8,016 nucleotides of DNA, from positions 1 to 8,016 of the forward strand of contig JALGZK010000035.1 of assembly GCA_025774935.1 (NCBI GenBank). The letters are read 5' to 3'. The position numbers and the translations under genes are program-made. How positions within the stretch are numbered: position 1 is the stretch's first letter; each line of letters starts with the position of its first letter. The notes beneath the pieces are model-generated. The model did no database searches, was not told the origin of the DNA, and worked only from the letters and a program-made list of their open reading frames with translations. Below are positions 556 to 1,685 of the stretch, piece after piece. The DNA is from a bacterium (GTDB lineage Bacteria; Joyebacterota; Joyebacteria; Joyebacterales; Joyebacteraceae).

Positions 556-694
556 CAGAGGCGGGGGCGATCTCGCCTCGCGACGGGCTTGCCCATTCCG
601 GAGGTGCGATGGCAGCAGACTGTGAACGCTGGACCTAGGCCAGCACCATCCGAGCCGTCCTCCTTGCGGCACTTCGGAGTATCAGGAGGAAATC
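556..694 (+). promoter_or_regulatory. Structured 5' leader of cassette copy 1 (unclassified)
   Basis: Elements in order: a 5' hairpin, GAGGCG (558-563) with CGCCTC (574-579); a possible outer stem, GGAGG (600-604) with CCTCC (659-663); stem GATGG (608-612) with CCATC (646-650); a 15-nt internal loop (613-627) facing one nucleotide (645); and a closing hairpin GCTGG (628-632) / CCAGC (640-644) with loop ACCTAGG. The SD AGGAGG (684-689) lies 5 nt before the ATG. TCCTCCT at 658-664 is also a perfect complement of AGGAGGA at 684-690, so it could either close the outer stem or mask the ribosome-binding site, a switch-like alternative. The copy 2 leader preserves the central fold with identical loop lengths. 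I tried fluoride, c-di-GMP, TPP, THF and cobalamin consensus features and found no match. This is fold-by-eye, not computed energy. Confidence 0.5.
609..638 (+). CDS. Possible 9-residue leader peptide, cassette copy 1
   Basis: GGAGGTG precedes ATG GCA GCA GAC TGT GAA CGC TGG ACC TAG, which reads MAADCERWT. The spacing from GGAGG to ATG is only 4 nt, short but usable. An equivalent frame of exactly the same length lies in the copy 2 leader (MAASCDCWT), with identical ribosome-binding site, start, end and stop. The stop codon lies in the loop of the conserved hairpin, so a terminating ribosome would melt that hairpin, as in translational attenuation leaders. Against coding, all three differing codons are nonsynonymous, while the variable bases fall in the predicted unpaired loop, so conservation may reflect RNA structure instead. 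Confidence 0.3.
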   Translation: MAADCERWT

Positions 695-1291
695 ATGAGA
701 GCTCTCGCTATTGCCACACTTCTCGTCCTCGTGGCGTCGGTCGCTTGGGGCCAGGCGTTTACCGAGGACTTCGAGGCGGGCGTGCCGCCCGCGGGCTGGA
801 TAGTCACGGACAACGCGGGCGATGGGGTTGTCTGGACGACGGCCTCGTCCTATGGTGAAGGGAACTACACGGGTGGCTCGGGCGATTGCGCGATGTGCGA
901 CTCCGATGCTGCCGGCAGCGGCATCTACCTCGACACCGAGCTCATCACCCACACATTCACGGTTCCCGGGGCCGCCACGCTCGAGTTCGACGCGAACTAC
1001 CAGAACTTGGCGGGGTCGGACTACTTTGACGTCGACATCGACGTCGGAGCAGGCTGGGTGAATCTCCTCAGCTGGAACGAGGACCACGGCGGATTCGGGG
1101 CTCCCCCCGGAGAGCACGTGGTTCTGGATCTGGCGGGCTTCGCGGGGGAGACGGCTGCCATCCGATTCCATTACTACGATCCCAACGGGACCGGTTGGGA
1201 CTGGTACATCCAGGTCGACCAGGTAGAGCTCACGGGAACGACGCCCGTCGAGAGGACGACGTGGGGCTCGATCAAGAGCCTGTACCGGTAG
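695..1291 (+). CDS. Secreted jelly-roll protein (choice-of-anchor J / cleaved-adhesin-like), copy 1
   Basis: This 198-residue protein begins with a classic signal peptide: MRA, a hydrophobic core to about residue 17, and cleavage near AWGQA (17-21). The mature part opens with FTEDFEAGVPPAGW (22-35), the hallmark start of choice-of-anchor J / cleaved-adhesin-type beta-sandwich domains, and ends with GTGWDWYIQVD, typical of the last strands of that fold. These domains usually bind carbohydrate or other surface ligands. The acidic YFDVDIDV stretch might bind calcium. The last 11 residues, TTWGSIKSLYR, match the copy 2 tail at all but one position and lie outside the fold, so they may be a processing or anchoring tag. 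The start is set by AGGAGG 5 nt upstream. The gene is monocistronic, with its own promoter, long leader and strong terminator. The fold assignment is fairly secure; ligand and final location are unknown. Confidence 0.85.
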   Translation: MRALAIATLLVLVASVAWGQAFTEDFEAGVPPAGWIVTDNAGDGVVWTTASSYGEGNYTGGSGDCAMCDSDAAGSGIYLDTELITHTFTVPGAATLEFDANYQNLAGSDYFDVDIDVGAGWVNLLSWNEDHGGFGAPPGEHVVLDLAGFAGETAAIRFHYYDPNGTGWDWYIQVDQVELTGTTPVERTTWGSIKSLYR

Positions 1292-1307
1292 CTCGCACCA
1301 CGTCGAC

Positions 1308-1321
1308 GCGCGCCTTCGCGC
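1308..1321 (+). other. Stem-loop after the copy 1 stop codon
   Basis: GCGCG (1308-1312), loop CCTT, CGCGC (1317-1321), beginning 16 nt after the stop. Copy 2 has the equivalent hairpin with loop CCTG. The outer pair changes from G-C here to T-A in copy 2, a compensatory change that keeps the pairing. It may protect the mRNA 3' end, upstream of the terminator proper. Confidence 0.4.
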
Positions 1322-1350
1322 ACGGCAGGTCCCGCAGAAACACAGTGTGC

Positions 1351-1378
1351 AAAGGCCCGGCTCCAGAGCCGGGCCTTT
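1351..1378 (+). terminator. Intrinsic terminator of cassette copy 1
   Basis: AAAGGCCCGGCTC pairs perfectly with GAGCCGGGCCTTT over 13 bp around a minimal CA centre. It ends in a short T-run on the plus strand and is symmetrical enough to work in both directions. It lies about 60 nt after the stop of the copy 1 gene. Confidence 0.85.
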
Positions 1379-1501
1379 CACGTTCCGGAGCCGCGAGTCT
1401 CTGCCGGGCATCGGGCGGACCGCATGAACGCAGACACTGGCGGCACCTGAGCGTACGTTCACCTTCGACGGCCAGAACCCCCCGCTCACCGAAACAAACT
1501 C

Positions 1502-1531
1502 TTGCCAATCTCCTTTGGCTCGTGATAAACT
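1502..1531 (+). promoter_or_regulatory. Promoter of tandem cassette copy 2
   Basis: TTGCCA (1502-1507), an 18-nt spacer and TAAACT (1526-1531) preceded by TGA, in register with the copy 1 promoter. The spacer keeps TGGCTCGTG and the downstream start region keeps CGTACTGTGT. The predicted start is near 1538. Confidence 0.6.
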
Positions 1532-1546
1532 CACCGTACTGTGTGT

Positions 1547-1685
1547 AGAGTGCAGGGATCCCCTGCATTCTCTCGGGAACGTCATGCTCGGGAGGTGCGA
1601 TGGCAGCAAGTTGTGATTGCTGGACCTAGGCCAGCTTCATCCCCGCCGCCCGCGTGCGGCACACCTGTATGTTCAGGAGGCAGTC
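1547..1685 (+). promoter_or_regulatory. Structured 5' leader of cassette copy 2 (unclassified)
   Basis: A strong 5' hairpin occupies the same position as in copy 1 with unrelated sequence: TGCAGGG (1551-1557), loop ATC, CCCTGCA (1561-1567), extendable to 11 bp with one G-T pair. Then come CGGGAGGTGC, stem GATGG (1599-1603) with TCATC (1637-1641), a 15-nt internal loop (1604-1618) facing one nucleotide (1636), and the invariant hairpin GCTGG (1619-1623) / CCAGC (1631-1635) with loop ACCTAGG. The G-C pair closing the stem in copy 1 becomes G-T, so pairing is kept. The SD AGGAGG (1675-1680) lies 5 nt before ATG 1686. The perfect anti-SD of copy 1 is absent here; only CCTG (1664-1667) with CAGG (1674-1677) could mask the site. 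Confidence 0.5.
1600..1629 (+). CDS. Possible 9-residue leader peptide, cassette copy 2
   Basis: ATG GCA GCA AGT TGT GAT TGC TGG ACC TAG reads MAASCDCWT, after the same GGAGGTGCG as in copy 1. Start, length and stop position are identical to the copy 1 frame, and the stop again lies inside the hairpin loop. The pattern of changes (codons 4, 6 and 7, all nonsynonymous) does not by itself argue for selection on the peptide. Confidence 0.28.
   Translation: MAASCDCWT

Follow-up and report, generated by a model that had tools for sequence, protein, structure and literature searches.

A candidate upstream open reading frame in the leaders of adhesin-like genes from an uncultured bacterial lineage

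The leader found ahead of two adhesin-like genes is probably a strong ribosome-binding site followed by a very short upstream open reading frame (uORF), which lies about 86-94 nt ahead of the start of a secreted adhesin-like gene and acts on the translation or stability of the adhesin mRNA (probability roughly 0.6). A translated leader is preferred because the Shine-Dalgarno sequence, the start codon and the short frame are shared across genera, together with a stop codon at a stem-loop in four of five leaders, while the peptide and the hairpin vary. The finding suggests that secreted adhesins are under uORF control in an uncultured bacterial lineage on whose gene regulation, to our knowledge, there has been no work.

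Two tandem cassettes and their leaders

The window, a stretch of 8,016 nt, holds two tandem cassettes 991 bp apart, in each of which a promoter and a leader of about 145 nt precede an adhesin-like gene; all window features described here are on the forward (+) strand. A consensus scan of the region located two sigma-70-like promoters, at 512-541 (TTGTCA-18-TAAACT) and 1502-1531 (TTGCCA-18-TAAACT), where 0.1 would be expected. Gene 1 (695-1291) encodes a Cleaved_Adhesin-type secreted protein with a signal peptide (Pfam PF07675, E 5e-7). Comparison of the gene 2 translation (1686-2210) with this paralog and with the ortholog in a sister species (G001) identifies an adhesin-like protein that lacks an N-terminal signal peptide; both gene 1 and the G001 ortholog encode one, an in-frame N-terminal deletion has removed it from gene 2, and export of the gene 2 product may have been lost. 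In the G001 ortholog (L004:1597-1609), ATA follows the Shine-Dalgarno sequence at the expected position of the start codon; the gene may use a non-standard start or begin at a more internal GTG, or the assembly may contain an error here. The 3.2-Mb genome G000 has about 150 matches to the FlgD_ig domain, nearly all above the Pfam cut-off, which suggests that many exported proteins carry a sorting-type domain at their C-terminus.

A reading of the two leaders from the sequence alone (the sequence-only reading) had proposed a conserved element before both genes, with blocks and a hairpin conserved beyond their flanks, and both proposals are borne out. The leaders share identical runs of 18 nt (600-617/1591-1608) and 17 nt (628-644/1619-1635), and a second run of at least 17 nt has a probability of 0.0002 under column shuffling. 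The core (600-650/1591-1641) is constrained, because only 7 of its 51 positions differ compared with 19 of 31 in the part just downstream, and because the proportion of synonymous differences (pS) between the two genes is 0.51.

The 18-nt block reads GGAGGTGCG-ATG-GCA-GCA in both copies and in G001. It was quoted in the sequence-only reading (600-617) with no mention of the ribosome-binding site and start codon that it contains; GGAGGTGCGATGGCAGCA is a Shine-Dalgarno sequence (GGAGGT), a short spacer and then ATG GCA GCA. The frame opened by this ATG encodes MAADCERWT before a TAG in the first leader (uORF 1, 609-638) and MAASCDCWT before a TAG in the second (uORF 2, 1600-1629), nine codons in each case. 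Both stop codons are in the loop of the hairpin GCTGG-ACCTAGG-CCAGC formed by the second run (628-644 and 1619-1635). The strict motif used for searching, GGAGGT-N2-6-ATG, occurs in 0.1-0.5% of shuffled leaders (0.24% for uORF 1 and 0.54% for uORF 2). None of 40 secreted genes taken as controls from this genome has it upstream, and the uORF arrangement is not general among the secreted genes of this genome (40 tested).

Related leaders in a sister species and a second genus

The G001 sequence, on contig JALGWI010000021.1 of a metagenome-assembled genome, keeps all 18 letters of the block and has a frame of five codons (MAAAC-TAG). The name of this assembly, Meg22, is also that of a Guaymas Basin sediment core, and such an origin is likely. 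Within this genus (g1), the first two codons after the ATG (codons 2-3) are invariant and the Shine-Dalgarno-ATG unit stands 86-87 nt from the start of the adhesin gene. The next-closest homologs, G004a and G015a, belong to a second genus (g3), and their proteins are 63% and 60% identical to that of window gene 1. They carry GGAGGTGGCGATG and GGAGGTGACGATG (GGAGGTGRCG-ATG) 94 nt from the gene start, followed by a 23-codon frame without indel whose peptide differs from that of g1. This frame ends with a TGA directly after an invariant stem, GGCAACC/GGTTGCC, in which changes fall in the loop only. Altogether, five leaders belonging to two genera keep a Shine-Dalgarno sequence and start codon at nearly the same distance from the gene, with a stop in frame; two of the five are the tandem paralogs of the window. 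In these two and in the g3 pair, the stop codon falls within a stem-loop or next to one. The comparison set includes 20 genomes for the phylum, a shallow lineage, and the element is absent from the more distant homologs G010a, G013, G017, G004b and G015b.

A looser pattern (GGAGGT-N1-4-CGATGG) was also searched in 20 genomes; many of its matches are ordinary gene starts and others are inside genes. Candidate mini-ORFs were seen behind GGAGGT in G009 (MA and a stop, L072:1501-1520) and G006 (MVV and a stop, G006b, L065:1501-1521), in the leaders of genes with signal-peptide-like starts.

Cysteine at position 5 is common to the g1 peptides (TGT/TGT/TGC) and absent from the g3 peptides, and the idea of cysteine attenuation was dropped for this reason. 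Within pairs, the uORF dN/dS is approximately 0.8 on very few sites, so the data show constraint at the nucleotide level, with no clear constraint on the peptide.

Proposed mode of action and alternative explanations

If the leader is a translated uORF, ribosomes would load on the mini-ORF soon after the 5' end of the transcript, translate it, and come off within or next to the stem-loop. Translation of the mini-ORF could alter the exposure of the downstream ribosome-binding site or the stability of the mRNA, so that translation or decay would be the step that sets adhesin output. With 0 intrinsic-terminator-like sites in 400-2400, transcription attenuation is unlikely. Modelled ribosome placement frees the Shine-Dalgarno sequence of the gene in the first window leader and in G004a, not in the other leaders. 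A model of Shine-Dalgarno sequestration was rejected given this inconsistent accessibility, and no attenuation mechanism is claimed since the modelled release is inconsistent among leaders. A more specific scheme can be imagined, i.e. a lineage-specific translation-sensing switch in which the position of the ribosome on a tiny uORF, with its stop in or beside a hairpin, controls surface adhesin expression, and in which the architecture is kept while peptide and hairpin sequence are free to change between genera; it is speculative and rather unlikely in this full form.

Because the constraint is seen in the nucleotides and is not clear for the peptide, the main rival is a stabilising or ribosome-loading role, in which the Shine-Dalgarno sequence (with the 5' hairpin) holds a ribosome near the 5' end and protects the mRNA, the short ORF being incidental. 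Such a role would resemble that of the STAB-SD 5' stabilisers (Agaisse and Lereclus 1996, listed in PMC3997798), which likewise have an SD-like sequence in the untranslated leader, a long way upstream of the Shine-Dalgarno sequence that serves the gene itself. The invariance of the Shine-Dalgarno sequence while ORF length (5 to 23 codons) and peptide vary is consistent with this role, as are hairpins of unrelated sequence near the 5' end of both window leaders and the extra SD-like sites upstream of other secreted genes in the genome (8 of 40 vs 1 in the antisense control). However, 5/5 leaders retain the ATG and a well-spaced start context, the 23-codon frame of g3 has no indel, and the first two codons after the ATG are invariant in g1. 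In contrast to STAB-SD elements, each Shine-Dalgarno sequence here leads into a start codon and a short frame. A stabiliser is therefore possible but clearly the less probable account.

A structured cis-regulatory RNA (a riboswitch or protein-binding leader) with the fold drawn in the sequence-only reading is improbable, and a riboswitch-like structured RNA is not supported. The proposed 5' hairpins at 558-579 and 1547-1571, which differ in sequence, do have stems of 9 to 10 or more pairs, with local energies that are modest relative to shuffles (z -1.1 and -2.0, respectively). The inner hairpin is identical in both copies despite the pS of 0.51 and has pair probabilities of 0.3 and 0.75, but it is absent from G001. 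When the full leaders are folded, the outer stem GATGG/(C/T)CATC reaches pair probabilities of 0.08 and 0.03, and 0.00 in G001, although GATGG and CCATC are both present there and are kept, without the hairpin, in the covariance-model match. Energies of the core and of the full leaders are no lower than those of shuffles, which speaks against a shared leader fold. Changes were said to fall in the loop or to preserve pairing; the one difference that affects pairing is a G-C to G-U change, and there is no double (compensatory) change anywhere. A covariance model built from 600-650/1591-1641 and the proposed structure recovered only the two copies and the G001 ortholog among 118 genomes, and these three sequences have no covarying pair. 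A weak match at G000:C1:295924 was rejected as it lies where an 823-codon frame is open. Essentially, then, there are no homologs beyond the locus and no covariation, the outcomes that the sequence-only reading had itself named as counting against its proposal. That no known riboswitch class was recognised in it does agree with a cmscan of Rfam 15 (E up to 1), which gave one unrelated weak match, and a scan of the window and homolog loci gave nothing relevant; an undescribed class would be compatible with such absence. The Shine-Dalgarno sequence and start codon account for most of the conserved letters, and the 18-nt block makes better sense as a ribosome-binding site plus the beginning of a short uORF than as part of a riboswitch-like fold.

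That the blocks are functionless remnants of recent tandem duplication or gene conversion, plus chance, is quite unlikely. The two copies are indeed tandem, and the exact 18-mer is found in only 10 stretches among 84,980 genomes, approximately the chance number; one of these is G001, and most of the others sit within longer open frames. The duplication is nevertheless old (dS 0.87 between the window genes), and the second gene is closer to the G001 gene (dS 0.44) than to the first. Conversion would not readily leave the variable letters between the conserved blocks, and the block is identical in another species while the Shine-Dalgarno-ATG unit recurs in a second genus. Least probable is an operator in the DNA, to which a repressor would bind downstream of the promoter: the near-perfect palindrome GCTGGACCTAGGCCAGC is identical in both copies, but it is absent in G001, no third exact site exists in its own genome and no exact site in 19 relatives, near matches are fewer than for a reversed-pattern control, and the hypothesis was rejected as no regulon was found in these genomes.

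Known systems and a separate leader

Translational attenuators of the ermC type consist of a uORF, then hairpins and a second Shine-Dalgarno sequence. The leaders described here have the same order of parts, whereas the Shine-Dalgarno sequence of the gene is not consistently sequestered in predicted folds and an inducer is not part of the proposed reading. Judged from its sequence, the element looks like a known type of gene control, that of the uORF, in an uncultured bacterial lineage. A direct precedent for the uORF reading comes from Corynebacterium, where the ilvB-II 'structured RNA motif' was reinterpreted as a uORF (PMC10272879), and the topAI uORF of E. coli is another example of a bacterial regulatory uORF (PMC12121999). 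Similar to these, the window element has a short ORF with its own Shine-Dalgarno sequence in the 5' leader, a stop near a stem-loop, and a conserved leader that could at first be read as a structured RNA motif. In contrast to these, it has no enriched regulatory amino acid common to all members and no terminator, and the downstream gene encodes a secreted adhesin in place of a function in biosynthesis or translation stress. When no more than two copies are read, a Shine-Dalgarno sequence and a start codon can be mistaken for an RNA motif.

A different leader of about 200 nt (GGAGGTGA..CCCAAGC..GGAATCCGGCGG..) was seen at L039:1290-1500 and at about 1502-1711 on the - strand of L244, L245 and L246. 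At least in G010 and G012, it precedes a distant adhesin-like gene. Rfam scans of L039 and L042 matched nothing relevant. The G012 copy has 78-83% identity to those of G017, G010 and G004 (two genera), and the predicted fold has double changes in 2 of 52 pairs, making this leader a better candidate for a structured RNA than the uORF leader.
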